From positions 1 to 64,000 of the forward strand of contig JAPLFY010000028.1 in assembly GCA_026390435.1 (NCBI GenBank): 64,000 bases of DNA, read 5' to 3'. A program made the translations under genes and the position numbers. The stretch is from Pseudomonadota bacterium. GTDB taxonomy: Bacteria > Bdellovibrionota_B > Oligoflexia > Oligoflexales > CAIYRB01. The first letter of the stretch is position 1; each line of letters opens with the position of its first letter. Positions 42,354 through 57,213 of this stretch are shown here, one piece after another. The notes under the pieces are model-generated. The model searched no databases. It was not told the DNA's origin and was given only the letters and a program-made list of their open reading frames with translations.

Positions 42354-45300
42354 CTAACTAAACAGGAAGTCGAGATCCTTGGCCGTCATGTCGGCCATGA
42401 CATTGCCATCGTCCGCGATAATGCCCTCGACTAGTTGCCGCTTTGCAGCCTGCAGCGAGAGGATTTTCTCTTCCACAGTACCACGTGCGATTAACCTATA
42501 GGCAAACACGTGATTCACCTGACCGATCCTATGGGCACGGTCGATGGCTTGCGCCTCACTAGCCGGGTTCCACCATGGATCGAGGATGAAGCAGTAGTCG
42601 GCTGCCGTTAGGTTGAGGCCAACACCGCCAGCTTTTAGACTGATCAAGAATACGCGGACATTGGGATCGTTTTGAAAGTGTTCTACGCGTTCTTTGCGGT
42701 CAGTCGTGGAGCCATCGAGATATTCATAAACAATCCCCTTGGCATCTAAGCGCTGACGCACGATGGATAACATGGAGGTAAACTGGCTAAACACCAGTGC
42801 TTTGCGCCCAGAATCCATCACTTCTTGGAGTTCATCTTCAAGCAGGTCTAGTTTGGCACTGCTCTCCCCAACACGCCCAGAATCAATGAGACCAGGGTGA
42901 CAAGCTAGCTGACGCAGCCTAAGCAGCGCCTCCAGAACATGCATGCGCGACTTGCCGAGGCCAGCCGACTTGATCTTCTTCTTGAGCGAGTCGCGATAAT
43001 GTGCCGCCAACTCGTCGTACTCTTTTTGCTGGTCGGGTTCGAGCACGCAGTAGACGGTGCTTTCGGTCTTGCCCGGTAGTTCCGGTAGGACCTGCTCTTT
43101 CGTGCGGCGCAGGATAAATGGCCGCAATGCTCGCGCCAGCGTTTCCAGCTTACTGCCCGTGAGCTTGCCGCTACTGCTAAATAATTCGCCGAATACAGCA
43201 GCACTGTCTAACATGCCGGGATTCAAAAAGCGGAAAATCGATCCTAGTTCGGCAATTCGGTTCTCTACCGGTGTACCCGACATCGCCAGTCGATGTTGCG
43301 CCTTGAGCGCACGCACAGCTTTCGCCGATTGGGTACTCTCATTTTTGATTGCTTGCGCTTCGTCCAACACGACGTAGTCAAACGAAAAGGCTTGGAGCAT
43401 TTCGACATCGCTACGCAATGTGCCGTAGGATGTGACGATTAGGTCATACTTCGATAGTGATTTTACGTCGCGCATCCGCGACGCACCAACGTGAGCCAAC
43501 ACTTTCAGTGTCGGCGTGAATCGCTTGGCTTCATCTTGCCAGTTATAAATCAAACTGGTCGGCGCCACGATCAAGGTTGGCTGGGTAACTTCTCCCCGCT
43601 CCTTTAAAGCGACACTGCGTTTATGCAGATGGGCAAGCACCTGTACTGTTTTACCTAGACCCATGTCGTCAGCTAAACAGCCACCAAATCCGAATTGCTC
43701 AAGAAACTCTAGCCAGCCTAGACCTTGCTTCTGGTAGGGGCGCAGTTCACCGATAAAGGCAGGGTCTGGCTCCAGAGGCGCTATGCCAGAGAATGCTGCT
43801 AATTTCTGTCTATATGCCGTAAACGATTGATCTAGATTGGCCTCGGCTGCCTCAGAAACTAAGACATCCAAAAAGGCTGCATGACTGGTCCGGTAGCGCA
43901 GCTCGTCGCTCTGGCCGTCTTCACCCATTCGCAAAATAGGATCTAGTTTTTTTAGCCAAGCTTCGGGCAAAAGTCCGACTGTTCCATCGCCGAGTTGTAC
44001 ACGGTTGTCGCCGCGACGCAATGCCTCGAGTAGCCTAGGCAACTCAACGATTGTGCCACCGCCAAAGTCGAAACTAGCTCGCAGGTCGAGCCAATCGACG
44101 CCTGATTTTACATCGACATTGAAGCTGCGCCCTGTACGTAGTTTTTTACCCTCAGCTTCCACCGCCCAGCCCTGAGCACCAAGGTCACCGACTAATGTAG
44201 GCAGGATGGCCGCATCGACAAAAACGTCGGCACCAGTCACTGCACGTCCTGCCGAAGGGTGTACCCCAGCGTGTTCACATAAATCTCTAACGAGCTGCTC
44301 TTCCCGCAGCCTATCCCGGCGCAACACAATGCGCGGTGGAGGCGGCGGTTCTGGAGCAGCAGGTTTTTGCTCTACTCCTTCAACTAGCGCTGCCGTGTTC
44401 GCTACTTCTGAAGGGGCTTCAATCTGATGCTGACGTGGCCCGCGTCTGGCGCCTCGCCGTGAATCTTGCTGACGTTGCTGCGGCGTGGTTGGAGCTGGCG
44501 GCGCCTCGTATTCAAAATCATAGTTCGCCAGGAGTACCATGGCTTTATCAGTGATCGGCGTGGCCAAAAAGATGAGTTTAGGCTTGGCTTCACCCACCAC
44601 GATGCGCCATCCACTATCACTCGGTAGATCAAGTTGCGGTGCATTGGGTAGATCGACGAAAGAACGAAGAAAAGCAGCCTGATCGGCTTTCGGGACTTTG
44701 ATCGACTGCACTTGCCTAAGTGTATTGATCCATCCACAAAGCCTTGGATCGGGCATCGGTATATGAATAATGCGATCTTTGAAGATCACTAGTCCGTCTG
44801 GGAATGCGGCCAAAATATCGAGTAACGGCACAGTGATGCGGCCGCGGCGGAATTCACCGCGCACAATCCACGTTCTATCTTGCTTGCGCACGGCAACGGC
44901 TAGGCGAAATATCCACGGATCTCGCATATCCCACGACAGGGCATGGAAGGCCTCGACACCGATAGTAACGGTGCTTTCTAACTTTGCATCGTCAACGCCG
45001 ATCCAGCCTAGGCGCCCCGTTTGGGCCATCAGAGTGATCAGCTGCGGCCGCAAACTTTCGGCGATGACAAAGGCATGCACTCTAGTTCTAAGAGGCGCGT
45101 TTGGTTCATCCCACGAGCCTGCTCTTGATAGGGTAGTGCTGGCAGTGCCAAAAAGATGCGTCAGTATGTCGCGATCGGGCCCTTCAGCAAAACTCTCTAA
45201 TGCTCGTACATCGATTGGCGCAGCAACGAGTTGTGCTGGTTGCTTGCCGCCGCTGCCTGCATCTTGCGGCTCCGCGGCACCGCTACTACCTTGGCCAATG

Positions 45301-46100
45301 CGCCTAAAAATACAAACAGTTAGAAGTCCACTACGGCGCGTCGATTCGGCATCGACCACGTAATAAACATCGCTCGCTGCCGATTTGCTGCCGCCGCGTT
45401 GTCGAGGCTCAACTAAATCACGCTGAGCATGGCCGACTATCTTAAGCGCCTCGCGCCAAGAAAGTTGGTCGTGATGTCCACGATTTTTATGTTGTTCTGG
45501 CTCTTTGGGAGCTGGGGGAGCCGCATGACTTGCGGCGGAGAAGGCGCGAATCCTGCCCGAAGCATCTGGTTCAGCACTGGCAACCGCACGCATGCGGCTG
45601 ACCGTTGGCTGCAAAAAGCGAGTATGAAACCCCAGGGGGTGATCCGTGGGCGCTTTGAAATCGCACTCGACGGTGCCGTCTGCCATGCAGAGCACTGCCC
45701 AGATGTGTTTACAGTAGCCTTTACCACCGGCATAAAAGGGACAATCGCAAAGCGCGCTAATCGTTGACTGCAGACGCTTGTCGTCTAAGGCCATCTCGAG
45801 CGTGACGTGGTACTCACCGCCTTTGCCTTTGACATCGGCTGTCAGTCGTTCAGGGGCTGATTTCGTCAGCAAGACGCGACGTTGGCGGTAATAGCCTTCA
45901 CCACGCATCCGCACCTGATCTTCAATGTCTGCCGCAAGTGCAGTCGTCAAACCACCGATACCCTGTGGCGGTCTTACTCCATGCACACTTACATGATTGG
46001 CTGCGCGCTGGCCTGAACGGCCGCGTCCTCGGCGCCCTCGCCTCAAATGCGTCACTCCCTCTTGCGTCCCTATGTTAGGACGTCTTTGTGTTCTAGCCAC
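42354..46100 (-). CDS. SNF2-family helicase with SWIM zinc finger
   Basis: 1248-residue chromatin-remodeller-type ATPase of the bacterial SNF2 group. An Arg-rich basic head ([13 protein letters not shown]) precedes a SWIM finger with C118, C120, C130 and H132 in [15 protein letters not shown]. A long unknown middle with a Pro/Gln-rich linker follows. The helicase core begins near residue 780: [44 protein letters not shown], and the second RecA domain [17 protein letters not shown] to [13 protein letters not shown]. GTG start. A role in transcription recycling or repair is inferred. Confidence 0.93.
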   Translation of the reverse strand: [1248 protein letters not shown]

Positions 46101-46258: not shown

Positions 46259-47211
46259 CTAAACCTTGTGGCAGGCGACGTCTCTTCCTTTCTCTATTTG
46301 CCGCATAACTGGGGTTTCGCGGCGACAGCGCTCATCCACTAATGGACATCGAGCCGAAAACCTACATCCTGGCGGGGGATTCAGTGGACTCGGCAATTCC
46401 CCCGTAAGTAACTGTTCCGGCCGAGATCTTTCACGCACCGGGTCTGGCAGCGGATTTGACGCGACTAAGGCCCGCGTGTAGGGATGAAGCGGACGGAAAA
46501 ATACTTCGTTGGAAGGACCGATTTCCACCAACTGCCCCAGGTACATGACCGCCATACGCGAAGAAATATAACGCACCATGCTAAGACCGTGCGCAATAAA
46601 AAGATAAGTTAAGCCCAGCTCCCTTTGTAATTCCTGAAGCAAAGTAACGACTTGCGCTTGTATTGAGACATCTAATGCGGAGATCGGCTCGTCACAGACG
46701 ACGAACTTTGGCTCCAGTGCTAAGGCGCGCGCTAGACCGATGCGTTGACGTTGACCGCCGGAAAATTCATGAGGAAATCGATAGGCATGCTCGGCCACCA
46801 AACCGACTCGCTCTAGCCAGGCCGCGATCCTATCTTGTCGTTCATGACGCGGCCAAAGTCCGTGAATGTCCGGGCCTTCGGCAATAATGTCGCCCACAGT
46901 CATCCGCGGATTAAGGCAGGCATAAGGATCCTGAAAGATCATCTGAGCGAGACGAGCATAGGACTTCCGCCTACTTGTACCCATCTTGCCGGCCATGGAT
47001 TCCCCGGCAAAGCGGAAATCACCCTCGGTGGCATCGTACATACGCACCAAAAGCCGCCCTAGCGTGGATTTGCCACAGCCCGACTCACCAACTAATCCAA
47101 GAGTTTCGCCTGGTTCGATGGCAAATGAGACCTTATCAACAGCATGTAATTTGATGCCGTGACCTAAATCAAACTGCTTACTCAAACCCTCAACTTCGAT
47201 GAGCGGGGTAG

Positions 47212-47215
<4 letters not shown>
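46259..47215 (-). CDS. oppF: Oligopeptide ABC transporter ATP-binding protein OppF
   Basis: ATPase of the peptide importer operon. Walker [11 protein letters not shown]-loop [14 protein letters not shown], signature [10 protein letters not shown], Walker [12 protein letters not shown] and H-loop LFIAHGLS are present; the usual H-D-L after the H-loop His is H-G-L here. C-terminal cysteines lie in [12 protein letters not shown] and ACH. The frame stays open to 47401, but ATG at 47215 overlaps the oppD stop (ATGA) and gives the family N-terminus [15 protein letters not shown]. Last gene of oppABCDF. Confidence 0.94.
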
Positions 47216-48288
<1,073 letters not shown>

Positions 48289-48303
48289 AGCCAATGCCGC
48301 CCC

Positions 48304-49791
48304 CTAAGTCCTGCCGCGCAATTTCGGATCAAATGCATCCCGCATCGAATCCCCCAACAGATAGAAGCACAACAGCGTGATGCCGAGCACCGAGGCCGGT
48401 AAGAAAAACTGAATCGGATTGACCTGCAAGCGCCTAGCTGCATCGAAAACAACATTACCCCAAGATGGCGTTGGCTGTTCCAAACCAAGGCCAAGCATCG
48501 ATAAGAACGCCTCCGATGCGATAACCCCTGGAATACGGGCAGACCAAGCAATAATGATCAGTCCCAATAAGTTGGGGCCGATATGATGCGAGATCAGCCT
48601 TTTTATCGGTGCGCCTAACAGACGGCTAGCCTGGACAAACTCTAATTCTCGCATCCGCAATACCTCACCGCGGACGATGCGCGCAAACCCAGCCCAGCTG
48701 AATGCCGTCAGCGCCACGACGAGACTGAGTACGCCCTTGCCAATAGCAACTTGCAGGATGATGAACACAAGCAAGTCCGGAAAATTATCAATAACCTCGA
48801 CGAGGCGCATGCAGACATTGTCTATCTTGCCGCCCATGAGACCTGAAAATGCGCCAAAAATCAGACCGATGAAAATACAGAGCGTGGGCACCAGAAGGGC
48901 GAGCAGCATATCCACGCGGGTACCCTTCACCATGCGCGCTAACACATCACGGCCAAGCCCGTCCGTCCCGAATAGATGCGCCCGGCCGCGCATAGTCTCA
49001 CCCACCGCTGCCTTTGGATAGATCGTTTGAGCGTCAGATAATTTTATCGTATTGATAAGTTTAGTCTCTAATACTGCAGCGCGTGCACCGTAGCTACGCT
49101 GCCCTGTGCTTAGATCGTCGACAAAGGCGACCACGGAATAAAGATAGGATTCAGACGGATCGAGTCCCATGCCGTCAAATACAGCGTGCTGCGCTGGATC
49201 GGTGAGCTCAGCAATATTCAGTCCGCGCTCAATGGTCCCGTCTGCCAGATCGCTTAGTTTTATACGGTCACTAGGTGTTACCAATAACCGGTAGACTGCG
49301 TAGCCCGACGCTCCCGACATAGTGTCCCAAACCAAGTGAACGCCGTCGACAGTGGCGGCACCATCAATGCGGAAATTCTGTGGCGGCAGCAAGTCACCGG
49401 GAGCACGAAGCGGCGCCGCAAGATCGTAGTTGGGATCGACTAGATCAACGGGAACCGCAGCGAAATCATCCACTATAAGCAGTGACTCCCCGCGAGTTGG
49501 GCCCTGATTAATATCGTGGGAGTTCTGTTGGTTTTCGTAGGCCACCCCACCTTCCGACTTGGGGAAGAACACGGGACCGACGGCGCCAGCCAGCGTGACA
49601 AACATGATGACCGCAAGCGAAGTCATAGCCAGGCCATTTTTCTTCAGTCGCATGAAGGCATCTTGAAAGTACGTCAATGCTGGTCGGGAAATATTCTCCG
49701 CAGCTGCCGCTTGGCGCTTAAGCGGCAAGAACATGTCATCGGCGATAGGGCCCCACAATGCGGAGCCGGGCGTCTGGTGATGTTGGCCCAT
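48304..49791 (-). CDS. oppC: Oligopeptide ABC permease OppC with fibronectin-III-like insertion
   Basis: Inner-membrane permease. TM1 lies at about residues 57-76 and the conserved permease core resumes at HLFGTDGLGRDVLARM (272), continuing to the EAA-type loop GEVLRMRELEFVQASRLLGAP and GLGLEQPTPSWG. Normal OppC proteins are about 300 residues; this one has 495 because about 190 residues separate TM1 from the core. Within that periplasmic loop, residues ~135-243 read like an FN3 fold: PPQNFRIDG, VHLVWDTMSGASGYAVYRL, YLYSVVAFVDD, YGARAAV. The insertion is in frame and the rest is intact. Confidence 0.9.
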   Translation of the reverse strand: MGQHHQTPGSALWGPIADDMFLPLKRQAAAAENISRPALTYFQDAFMRLKKNGLAMTSLAVIMFVTLAGAVGPVFFPKSEGGVAYENQQNSHDINQGPTRGESLLIVDDFAAVPVDLVDPNYDLAAPLRAPGDLLPPQNFRIDGAATVDGVHLVWDTMSGASGYAVYRLLVTPSDRIKLSDLADGTIERGLNIAELTDPAQHAVFDGMGLDPSESYLYSVVAFVDDLSTGQRSYGARAAVLETKLINTIKLSDAQTIYPKAAVGETMRGRAHLFGTDGLGRDVLARMVKGTRVDMLLALLVPTLCIFIGLIFGAFSGLMGGKIDNVCMRLVEVIDNFPDLLVFIILQVAIGKGVLSLVVALTAFSWAGFARIVRGEVLRMRELEFVQASRLLGAPIKRLISHHIGPNLLGLIIIAWSARIPGVIASEAFLSMLGLGLEQPTPSWGNVVFDAARRLQVNPIQFFLPASVLGITLLCFYLLGDSMRDAFDPKLRGRT

Positions 49792-49803: not shown

Positions 49804-50775
49804 CTAACCAAACCGAATGCGCGGATCAATCAGTCCGTAAAGCACATCAGTGATCAAGTTGATGATGATAAAAAAGCCACCGTAAAAAACGGTAAGACCC
49901 ATCAGCACGTTATAATCGTTGTTACTGATCGAATTAAAATAAGCAGCACCTAGTCCTGGGACACCGAAGATATTTTCGATCAGCAGCGATCCCGAAATTG
50001 CCCCCACAAAAATCGGACCAAGTAAGGACACCACCGGTAGCATCGCGTTTCTTAACTGGTGCAGGGCAACAATCCGGGCAGTGGAGGCGCCTTTTGCGCG
50101 CGCTGTGCGGACAAACTCGGCAAACGACACGTCCACCATTTGACTGCGCATATAGCGCGTCATTAGCGTGATAATACCCAAGCTCAGAGTGAAGCCCGGA
50201 AGAATCACGTCGCGAAATTGCCCCCACCCTACCGGACGAAACCAAACATGCGGATTCACATGTAAATGCGTCAGCGGAAAGACGGCCAAGAAGTATTGAA
50301 CGACGTAGGCAATCAAAGCAGAAGGTATCGCGATCCCAATTACGCAAAGGAGCATAGCAAGGCGGTCAATCAAAGAATTGCGGTAAAGCGCAGCAACGAT
50401 CCCCAGCCCAAGTCCAACGGTGGTCCCGACGATTAGGGCGAAGATGCCGATAGCTGCGGATGCCGGGAAATTTTCAGCGATCATTCGGTTAACGCTACGA
50501 TCGACCGTACGAAAACTCTCGCCAAAATCGCCCTGAATAAACATCCGCTGCATCTGGATCAAATACTGATCAAAAATCGGTTTATTCAGGCCGTACTTTT
50601 CTTCAAGGTTAGCACGAACAGTGGCTGGGATTTCCTTGGTGCGTGTCAACGGATCGCCTGGCACCGCCCGCATAAAGACGAAAGTCAACGTCGCTAAAGC
50701 CCATAGAGTCAGTACCGCCATGATTAGGCGCTGACCGACGTAGCGAAAAAATCCCCAAGATAACAAATGCTGCAT
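49804..50775 (-). CDS. oppB: Oligopeptide ABC permease OppB
   Basis: Six-span permease of 323 residues. The N-terminal FRYVGQRLIMAVLTLWALATLTFVFMRAVPGDP and the downstream RYMRSQMVDVSFAEFVRTARAKGAS (EAA loop) are diagnostic, as is the closing IENIFGVPGLGAAYFNSI...VLYGLIDPRIRFG. Normal length with no insertion, in contrast to OppC. Lies 12 bp before oppC and 19 bp after oppA. Confidence 0.95.
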   Translation of the reverse strand: MQHLLSWGFFRYVGQRLIMAVLTLWALATLTFVFMRAVPGDPLTRTKEIPATVRANLEEKYGLNKPIFDQYLIQMQRMFIQGDFGESFRTVDRSVNRMIAENFPASAAIGIFALIVGTTVGLGLGIVAALYRNSLIDRLAMLLCVIGIAIPSALIAYVVQYFLAVFPLTHLHVNPHVWFRPVGWGQFRDVILPGFTLSLGIITLMTRYMRSQMVDVSFAEFVRTARAKGASTARIVALHQLRNAMLPVVSLLGPIFVGAISGSLLIENIFGVPGLGAAYFNSISNNDYNVLMGLTVFYGGFFIIINLITDVLYGLIDPRIRFG

Positions 50776-50794: not shown

Positions 50795-52465
50795 TTAATG
50801 TTTTGGTTGACCACTCCACTCCGCATAGCGGAAGTCTGGACTGAAACCAAAAGCGTTGTGGCGCATGTTCTTAAGCGCCGGAGCGACGACAAATGCACCG
50901 CCAGTTTGGTCGATAGGAACCATTGGACTTTCGTCCAGTAGCAGTGCCTCAGCTTCGGCAAAAAGCTTCACTCGAACAGCCATGTCCGATTCATGAGCCG
51001 CTTTAACTATAAGTGCCTCGTACGTTTTATTCACCCAACCGGTCATGTTGTTATCGTTACCAGCGGTGAACAGATCCATGAAGGTCATTGGGTCACGGTA
51101 ATCTGGACACCACCCCGACAGGGTCACATCGTAGTTGCCGTCGCGCGATTTTTGCAGGCGCGTCTTGAATGGGACACTTTCTACTCTGACCTCAGTATTC
51201 AGCAGCTTGGCCAGACTGTTCTGCCAATATTCGACAAATTTCTTCGCCAAGGTGCCATCGTCAGACAAGATGGTGAAAGAAGGAGGCTGAGTCTGTTTAC
51301 TGGCTGCTAGGTACTCTTTTAGGTGCTTTTGCGAACTAGGGTAATCTGCGTCCCTGCCTTTAACGGGGGCTTCACGCCTGTAGGTCATGCCCTTTTTCGA
51401 GCCAGGCATATAATCTGGAACTAGGCCCAGAGTCGGCTTATAGCCCGGTACACCAATGATTTTATTAACGAACTCGCTGCGATTGACGCCGTCGCGTACA
51501 GCCTGACGCAGGAGCTTGTTGGCAAAAGGACGCCCCGGCCGAACATTAAACGCAATGTACGTCGTACAGCCCGTGGGGAAAGTTTGAATTTTCAATTTAG
51601 CCGCTTGGGCCTGCTTGATAATTTCTGGCGACGACGTGGTTGTGTAATCGATACCGCCAGTCTGGAAATTATTGAAATTAGCTTGCGAGTCTTTCACCAT
51701 TGCCGATGATTGGATCGCCTGAACCTTCACTTTATCCGCGTCCCAATAAGTCGGTGAACGCTCAATGCGCATGGACTGTTCTTTTTGCCAAGCTGCCAGC
51801 TTGAACGGTCCGTTGCCGATAATGCTGGCGGGGTCGGTGGCAAATTTATCGCCAAACTTTTCTACGATGTCCCGACGCAGTGGATAGAAAACTTGAAACG
51901 TCGCCAGTGAATCAAAGAAAGGTACCGGACGACCTAGCTTGACCTCCAGGGTGTGGTCATCGACGGCACGAACGCCTAAGTTTTCCTTAGGTTGCTTTTT
52001 CGCGATGATGTCTTCCGCATTAAGAATACCGGCGGCTATAGCGATGAAGGAATACTCACTGGCATAAGCCGGATCAACCAGTCGCCGCCATGAGTATAGG
52101 AAATCCTGCGCTCTCACGGGCTTGCCATCTTGCCACCTAGCGCTCTTACGGATCTTAAAGGTCCACGTTTTCTTGTCCTCACTAGAAGTCATGCTCTCCG
52201 CAGTGCCGGGGATGATATTGCCAGCAGGATCATAAGACATCAGCCCCTCAAAAATGTGACCTAGCCACATCGAGCTGATGGTGTCTGCCTGTTTGGTCGG
52301 GTCCATGGATGGCGGCTCGTCGCCAGCGCTAAAGTAAACTTCTTGGCTCATTGCCCGCTCATCTTGAGGTTTTTGCTCCGCGCGCACGCCTGAGGCGTAA
52401 AAAACTGCGGCTACTAAAAAGAGAGCTGCTGCTGCGCCCCTAGTCATGGCGGACGTTAAGACCAT
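50795..52465 (-). CDS. oppA: Oligopeptide-binding periplasmic protein (SBP family 5)
   Basis: Captures peptides in the periplasm and hands them to OppBC. A signal peptide (AAALFLVAAVFYASGVRAEQ) precedes the family pattern DEPPSMDPTKQADTISSMWLGHIFEGLM, WTFKIRKSARWQDGKPVRAQDFLYSWRRL and IGNGPFKLAAW. 556 residues is typical. GAGG lies eight bases before the ATG at 52465. First gene of oppABCDF. The 258-bp gap upstream (52466-52723) holds no credible gene; it must contain the operon promoter, which is not obvious. Confidence 0.95.
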   Translation of the reverse strand: MVLTSAMTRGAAAALFLVAAVFYASGVRAEQKPQDERAMSQEVYFSAGDEPPSMDPTKQADTISSMWLGHIFEGLMSYDPAGNIIPGTAESMTSSEDKKTWTFKIRKSARWQDGKPVRAQDFLYSWRRLVDPAYASEYSFIAIAAGILNAEDIIAKKQPKENLGVRAVDDHTLEVKLGRPVPFFDSLATFQVFYPLRRDIVEKFGDKFATDPASIIGNGPFKLAAWQKEQSMRIERSPTYWDADKVKVQAIQSSAMVKDSQANFNNFQTGGIDYTTTSSPEIIKQAQAAKLKIQTFPTGCTTYIAFNVRPGRPFANKLLRQAVRDGVNRSEFVNKIIGVPGYKPTLGLVPDYMPGSKKGMTYRREAPVKGRDADYPSSQKHLKEYLAASKQTQPPSFTILSDDGTLAKKFVEYWQNSLAKLLNTEVRVESVPFKTRLQKSRDGNYDVTLSGWCPDYRDPMTFMDLFTAGNDNNMTGWVNKTYEALIVKAAHESDMAVRVKLFAEAEALLLDESPMVPIDQTGGAFVVAPALKNMRHNAFGFSPDFRYAEWSGQPKH

Positions 52466-53724: not shown

Positions 53725-56700
53725 TCAATGACTACACATTTGAAGGCTAGGGAATTGACCACAAACAGCCGTCTTAAGTTGCTCGACCTCGGCATCTTTT
53801 TCTCTTTTGAGTTGGGCGGCTTTAACGTCAGCTTGGTCAATTCTGTCCTGAAGCAAGGCGTATGCAGACTCGGTATGTTCGATGCGCATTTTAAGATTCG
53901 CGATTTCCGCATCTTTATGATCGCTTAAGATTTTCACGCGATCGTTTTCCGCCTTCAATTCCTGAACGGATTTGACTAGCAGAGGAGTCAATTTACCATA
54001 GTCAATCTGCCACGGGCTCTGCTGCGGGTCATCGCCGCCAACGGTGACCGCCTGCGGATAAAGTTTATAAAGCTCCTGAGCGATAAAGCCCTGCATGATT
54101 TCTTTGCTGGAATCAGCGATATAGTTATAATCGCGGACTTGAATGAGTTCTAGCAGGTCTAGGCCACGTGGACTGGCGACGATATTTTCCTTCAGTCTTC
54201 TATCGGACGTGGTGTTATAGGCGACAGTTGTAGATGAGTTTTGGCTGATACTACCCATGGCGGTACCATCAGGACGCTGGAAGTTCACGAAGTTTGCGCC
54301 TCCGATAAAGTTAGAACCAGCTTTGATCTGTAATCCATGAGAGCCAATTGTGCCGCCGGCATTATTGATCGATACCGCGTAAGCGCCATTGGCACTTACT
54401 TGTACATCTAGCTTCGCCGCCGGCACGGATGTGCCGATACCGACGTTGCCAGTTGACGCAATCACCACACGTGTAGCCATCACGTCAGCTGATGCACCCG
54501 TGACTGCAGTAGGCGCTGTCAGGAATAAGATGTTACCCGAACCGCCAGTACCCGTACCGTTACCTGCAGCAATTGTTAGATCTTTACCTAATTTATCGGT
54601 ACCAGTGATATTCGCCGTGCGTAAAACACCCCCAACCGCGGTCGCCGAGTTATCGTTAGCACCTGCCAGCAGCGTCGCGGCCCAAATAGAACCAGAACCG
54701 ATGTTGAAGCCGTTTATTAGCGTCAATGCGTTAAAAGTAGGCGATGCCGAGGTGCGGATGTCTTGCGCCGTCGACAGGCTGATGGACCCCGCACCGTTGG
54801 TGACGACGACGCCGTTGTTACCAGATGACGTTAGATAGGCAGCAGATGGGGTGGCGCCGTTACCAATGAGCAATTGACCGTTGGCAAGGACCGTTGATGT
54901 CGGTGATGCGCCAGCACCACCACCAAGCACGACGCCACCACTTGCAAGGACACCCGACGAGGCCATTGTGCTCGCCGAGTTAAAGTAAGGCATACCACCG
55001 GAAGTACCAGCGTTTAGGCCCGTACCACCATTGGCAAAACTCAAGGCTCCAGATACAGCCGCACTCGATGATAAATTTAACGCGCCAAACGCTGGTCCCA
55101 TTGCACCGACAGTGAGGACCTGGCCAGAAGTACCAGCTGCAGTGCTCGACAAATTAAGGGAACCGCTGCCGATGATCACGCCGTTGCTCGTAAATGATGT
55201 GGCACCTGTCCCGCCATAACTAACACCCAGCACACCTGCGGTGATTTTGGATGCCGGCAAGCTCGGGATATCACTGACCGCAAGATTAGTGCCACTCACC
55301 ACACGGCCTTTAGTGTCCACGGTAATTTTTGTGTAAGTGCCAGTTGCCACGCCTGTTGCAGCCAGAATAGGATTCGGATAATTGCCCGTCAAATCCCCAC
55401 CAGCGGCACCAGTTGGCGCAGCTCCCGACACCCAACTAAGCACGCCGCTACCATTTGTACTTAATAATTGTGCCGCCGCACCATCGCCACCGGGCAGAGT
55501 CCAAATGGTTGATGTGGCCAAAACATCCGGGGATTTGAACGCTACGTATTTTACCGAGCCGGGGTCGTACAGTATGATTCTCTTGGCTTCGATTCCATTA
55601 CCCCTAAGCGTGAGATCTCCGGTAAGTGTGGTTGCACCCGCCGCGATTGTACCGGTCGTGTTGATCGCCGTAGACCCAGTGATCGTGCTAGCGCCGTTGA
55701 TAGTGGCGTTATTGATCATGGGGCTAGCTAAAGTTTTGTTTGCCAGTGTAAGAGTTGCAGAATCTGTGACAACCACACCACTTGTAGGGAATACTGCGCT
55801 CGAAATAACACCAGTACCGCCGGCGGCCCTGGGCAAGATTCCAGTGACCGCGCTCGGCCGACCTAAGTTCAAAGAGCCAAACATCGGCGCCCCGCCACCA
55901 GCGGGCACAGTAAGTATCTGGTAAGCCGTGCCCGCCGCTGTTGAGTCGAGTCCGCCTAAACCGCTCCCCAGAACCACACCAAAATTATTCAGGCTAAATG
56001 TGCCAGAGCCCATATTGACTATGGTGGTTACATTAGGCGTCGCGGAACCTGTAGACGTCGTTTCCAGCGCCGAAGAAATACTTGCACTGTCAGCACGTGC
56101 GGCACTGACTGCAATCTTTGACGCTAGTATGTTTAGACCATCGACCGAGCCACTATTCGTGGCGGATACCAACTCGCTGCGGTAAGACGAATTGAGACTA
56201 AACCCAGCCATCACGCTGTCCAAACCGGCACTAGCACCGGAACTCACGCTAGCCGCATAAACACGCACGGTGGCAAGATTTTGGGTATAAGAATCCAAAT
56301 TTTCCGTCATCGCGGAAACAAGTACAGTCACCGCGCGGTCGACACTACCGGCTGTCGAGAGTTTGGCGGCAAGTCCCGAGATGCCTTGGACAGCTCCTTT
56401 GGATATCAGCCCCAAACGCGTACTTTTGTCACCAGCCTCGCTAGGCAAAGTAGAACTTCCAGCCGCTAATCCAGCTCCAATCGCCGGCAAATCGGAATCG
56501 AGGATCGTATCTTCGTCGGACCCGACGGCGCCAAGATTAGCGACCATTGCTTGCGCCGCAGCCGACAAGGCCGAGCTGATAGCCGCTGCCGAGCTGACGG
56601 CAGTCGGCACGCCATTGATACCACCGCGAGCCGTCGCCGTGAGCGCAGTGGCCATCGCCGTCATGCCTGGAGTCGCGGATGCTTCCGGTAAATAGGCGGC

Positions 56701-57213
56701 ATCCAAACTTTTGACGCTGGTGAACAAGCTGTTGGCTAATGCACCCGTCAGAGTACCGACTCGACTGTCGTCTCCGTTTAGAACAGAGCTGCTCGCCAGA
56801 CTTCCAACGGCGCCCTGCATAATGACGCCGACGATTTTTGTGGCATCCGTTGACGTCGCGAGTTTGCTCTTGATCACTGCTAACCTGGCGGCATCGCCAA
56901 TGGCATTCGCTTGTGCGGCGCTGAGACCACTGACTGTAGCCAAGTAGCCTCCAGGGCTGATGGCAGTGACCAAATCTGCTATCAAATTCGTCGCTAGTAA
57001 CGACAACCCAGGATCCGCCGAACCACCACCGGCATCAACTGTAGATCCTGACGCCGTGTAGGTTTCTTCCGTCGCACCCGTGCCGTCATCGACAGCGGGA
57101 GAACTGTGGCGTTTCTTACAGCCCTGAACGAGCAGCGCGGCCAGCACTAGAATGACTAGCCATCGACTGTGACGGGCGTAACCCCATTGATTGATGAGGG
57201 CGCGATTGGTCAT
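53725..57213 (-). CDS. Repeat-rich surface lipoprotein with C-terminal S74 self-cleaving chaperone
   Basis: 1162 residues. Lipoprotein signal peptide with [11 protein letters not shown]. The central ~900 residues are Gly/Ser/Thr/Ala-rich beta-repeats typical of tail-fibre-like or adhesin stalks (for example [19 protein letters not shown]). The C-terminus is a peptidase S74 intramolecular chaperone: SDRRLKENI begins at Ser1003, with Lys1008 five residues on, the spacing of the known Ser/Lys dyad; [17 protein letters not shown] follows. The last ~80 residues are coiled-coil. Cleavage before Ser1003 after trimerisation is expected. The partner and target are unknown. Confidence 0.86.

Follow-up and report, generated by a model that had tools for sequence, protein, structure and literature searches.

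The OppC permease encoded in the window (by which we mean the whole stretch of 64,000 nucleotides analysed here) carries a large insert between its first two transmembrane segments, TM1 and TM2, and we consider it established by homology, with high confidence, that this insert is a divergent fibronectin type III (FN3) domain. The same architecture is found in other genomes of the phylum, and the domain may serve in the docking of the peptide-binding protein OppA.

An FN3 domain in the TM1-TM2 loop of OppC

The oppC gene lies in a complete operon, oppA-oppB-oppC-oppD-oppF, with every gene on the minus strand (Table 1). The products include an SBP_bac_5 protein, two BPD_transp_1 permeases and two ABC ATPases with oligo_HPY, which is the set that defines OppABCDF; judged from its sequence, the operon is thus that of a type I oligopeptide ABC importer, for which ATP-driven peptide uptake is predicted. 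The window OppC scores above the curated cut-offs for both OppC_N (39.8 bits, cut-off 23.9) and BPD_transp_1 (93.5 bits, cut-off 26.4), and its reading frame contains no internal stops. Domain matches agree with the initial annotation in that OppB is normal. The real start codon of oppF is probably downstream of the start of the listed open reading frame. In every same-genus locus fetched, oppF is adjoined by a gene for a SNF2-family helicase with a SWIM zinc finger (42354-46100, minus strand, in the window).

Table 1. The opp operon of the window and the parts of its OppC protein.
Feature	Coordinates	Strand	Basis
oppA, family-5 peptide-binding protein, non-lipoprotein-type signal peptide	50795..52465	-	domain matches
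oppB, ordinary partner permease	49804..50775	-	domain matches
oppC, permease subunit with inserted FN3 domain, 495 aa	48304..49791	-	Pfam OppC_N and BPD_transp_1; homologues in 14 genomes
OppC_N region, residues 40-98, includes TM1 (about 58-76)	49498..49674	-	Pfam; TM call
conserved pre-FN3 segment, residues 77-128, YENxQNxxxINQGPTxGxxLLVxDD	49408..49563	-	family alignment
fibronectin type III domain, about residues 136-247	49051..49386	-	Pfam fn3, PDB, profile-profile matches
linker back to permease core, residues 248-270	48982..49050	-	alignments
BPD_transp_1 permease core, residues 309-492	48316..48867	-	Pfam
oppD, ATPase	47212..48294	-	domain matches
oppF, ATPase	46259..47401	-	listed ORF; domain matches

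Against E. coli OppC, which has 302 aa, all the additional residues of the window protein align after the TM1 end (FFPKS..) and ahead of the conserved HLFGTDGLGRD (the FGTDxxGRD motif) that precedes TM2. The TM1-TM2 loop is about 195 residues long, in comparison to 25-30 in E. coli OppC, and the FN3 stretch takes up about 110 of them; in the family alignment it is preceded by a conserved segment of ~50 residues and followed by a linker of ~23 residues. By family topology the loop is periplasmic, and the charge around TM1, which is more positive before than after the segment (three K/R in the preceding 15 residues, one after), was counted in support. The genome also encodes an OppC-like permease of 344 aa (L003, G000:C82), perhaps of the YejE type, which has ~60 extra residues aligned within the TM1 region.

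The Pfam fn3 model (PF00041) gave no match when the whole window OppC was scanned, and the segment alone matched it with an E value of 0.0052 and 17.4 bits, below the curated cut-off of 25. The homologues came closer to this cut-off: 6 of the 13 members of the family alignment were matched, with a best E value of 2.7e-5 and a best score of 24.7 bits. Two homologues, L016 and L017, have an FN3 domain that is shorter and more canonical than in the other members, and that of L016 matches the solved Fn3-like protein 3mpc (E 9.4e-6). A profile built from 12 inserts matches fibronectin (2.8e-4) and FN3con (0.0024) in the PDB. In a profile-profile comparison, the insert profile matched an FN3 profile made from seven FN3 sequences, four of which come from the window's own genome, with 96.3% probability and an E value of 1.7e-9. 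The homology matches, together with the alignment and the topology given above, support the initial reading of an FN3-like segment facing the periplasm between TM1 and the permease core.

Disorder of the segment had been named as a finding that would speak against this reading. It is contradicted by the homology to a folded domain; structure prediction, for its part, gave low-confidence models. AlphaFold run without an alignment produced no usable model of the whole protein (mean pLDDT 38) and, for the FN3 segment, strands at a mean pLDDT of 45, and a Foldseek search with the latter yielded no PDB match (best E value 1.2, with no FN3 among the matches listed). The failed alignment-free prediction neither supports nor refutes the FN3 identity.

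Distribution, origin and selection

We searched for the architecture in 58 genomes of the window's phylum, all of one class. FN3-bearing OppC was found in 14 of them, in frame, in opp operons and without internal stops. The carriers comprise six genomes of one genus (the window's own genome among them), one of another genus of the same family, and genera of other families. Wherever the fetched stretch was long enough, the gene shares its operon with oppA; in G001, G005 and G050 oppA is beyond the stretch. One carrier genome (G054) has, besides the usual oppA before oppB, a second oppA directly after oppF (L076, 708-2399, minus strand). An exact-peptide scan of a public genome collection found only one relative, 98% identical, from an uncultured proteobacterium assembly (the 'Loclat' bin), and tblastn of plasmids returned no FN3-OppC, the matches being plain OppC or unrelated FN3 proteins. 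A search of the literature, whose coverage is incomplete, found no description of FN3 in OppC. The suggestion made at annotation that this architecture is unusual for OppC is supported as regards its rarity within OppC.

The best NCBIfam match of the window OppC is Opp3C (NF045475, the Bacillota OppC), which it also resembles in the N-terminal motif before TM1. The score of 272.8 bits is below the model's cut-off of 450 bits; the two are related, but we do not class the window protein as a member. Of the three Bacillota proteins of this type that were compared, all of them without FN3, L093 and L094 have a TM1-TM2 loop of ~25 residues, and that of L095 is somewhat longer. The E. coli OppABCDF is like the window system in gene order, in subunit families and in the OppC_N and BPD_transp_1 core of OppC; its OppC, however, is without FN3 and has a core more distant than that of Opp3C.

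When the permease core was analysed by maximum likelihood, all permeases with FN3 fell into a single clade (support 94/87, rising to 100/98 once Bacillota were added), and this clade groups with the FN3-less Opp3C-type permeases of Bacillota, to the exclusion of E. coli OppC and its same-phylum relatives (98/92). Quick trees of OppA, OppB and OppD show the same split as OppC with support of 99 to 100. The OppC clade and the matching trees of the other subunits are therefore most simply read as a single insertion before the FN3-type operons diverged, and the domain would be ancestral to this operon type, with one origin within the searched set.

The dN/dS of the FN3 part is 0.09-0.21 where dS could be estimated, several pairs being saturated at synonymous sites. 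The permease core is more constrained, e.g., 90% identity in the core versus 57% in the FN3 part. By these measures the FN3 domain is under purifying selection, yet evolves faster than the permease core, and it has long been retained within one small phylum. An explanation by neutral insertion, or by an artefact of assembly or frameshift, is very improbable. The fn3 score of the window segment, which is under the curated cut-off, would speak for it, but 14 genomes across several families retain it in frame, dN/dS is well below 1, and a single origin is followed by retention over deep divergence. On these grounds we rejected assembly error, frameshift and neutral insertion alike; the first two had been noted beforehand as explanations that would undo the finding, and they are excluded by the 14 genomes and the purifying selection.

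Possible role at the docking face of the importer

In type I importers the binding protein docks on the two permeases from the periplasmic side, and in those for peptides it does so through small loops. We believe that the FN3 attachment site in the window OppC matches the position of P2 in MalF, a loop which we take to be topologically equivalent to the OppC insert and to have an Ig-like fold; as the FN3 domain sits at this place, docking or retention of OppA is our best guess at its function. MalF-P2 (residues 91-271) directly contacts MalE, the maltose-binding protein (PMC3150292). Like the FN3 loop of OppC, it is a large addition on the periplasmic side of a single permease in a type I importer. 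In the E. coli DppABCDF system the TM1-TM2 regions of both DppB and DppC are periplasmic, and the scoop of DppB, between TM1 and the alpha3 helix, binds DppA by entering its cleft; DppC is unlike DppB in this region (PMC12136057). MalF belongs to another permease family and handles another substrate, and we claim no sequence relation. If the docking guess is right, FN3-OppC would resemble MalF-P2 in its working only, and it is not a MalF family member.

In the mechanism that we propose, the OppC of OppABCDF gained FN3 once, in the periplasmic TM1-TM2 loop; the domain would stand over the mouth of the transporter and bind OppA, and peptide-loaded OppA would thereby dock, or remain docked through the ATP cycle, as MalF P2 holds the maltose-binding protein. 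Among the three functions suggested at annotation (docking, wall grip and substrate sensing), docking is the best supported, and this by analogy only. We give even chances to the FN3 domain being a docking or retention arm for OppA, and slightly less than that to the fuller proposal that a lineage-specific importer grafted FN3 onto OppC as a dedicated arm of this kind, an independent invention of the MalF P2 role. Several results argue for docking: FN3 replaces a short TM1-TM2 loop, the FN3-OppC operons carry oppA where covered, the OppA, OppB and OppD trees split together with that of OppC, and the FN3 part is conserved by selection at the dN/dS given above. Against it, OppA and OppB of the FN3-type operons are of ordinary length and show no obvious compensating insertion, and ordinary Opp systems, those of same-phylum relatives included, dock OppA without FN3. 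The faster evolution of the domain could equally reflect a loose tether or a ligand that is species-specific.

The domain could instead be an anchor by which the importer is held to the wall, or to some other protein of the envelope, and would then position the pump rather than aid transport. FN3 in bacterial extracellular proteins is often a spacer or adhesion module, and fast divergence is what a generic tether would show; however, a Pfam scan found no known wall-binding domain in the window OppC, and the conserved 50-residue segment before FN3 points to a defined geometry relative to the transporter, so that we hold an anchor to be unlikely. That the domain forms a structural lid on the substrate cavity, or a spacer around it, and stabilises the complex or broadens the peptide range without specific OppA binding, seems to us just as unlikely. 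Such a role would agree with the attachment of FN3 in a loop facing the scoop region of the partner subunit, and with the distribution of the two operon types: E. coli-type oppC occurs in 14 of the 58 genomes and the FN3 type in another 14, with no overlap (hypergeometric P 0.011, a value inflated by shared ancestry, which may itself explain the pattern). Since the FN3-type operon does not co-occur with the E. coli type in these genomes, it seems to be the general peptide importer. The low confidence of the alignment-free AlphaFold structure counts against a lid or spacer.

On the preferred reading, OppA docking, the addition of a folded domain at the docking site in one lineage is a natural experiment in the tuning of docking and release, and the FN3 domain is cleanly removable, hence testable.

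The window also encodes a putative lipoprotein of 1162 aa (53725-57213, minus strand), which is repetitive and glycine-/serine-rich and has a C-terminal Peptidase_S74 domain (chaperone of endosialidase), of a kind usually met in the tail spikes of phages.
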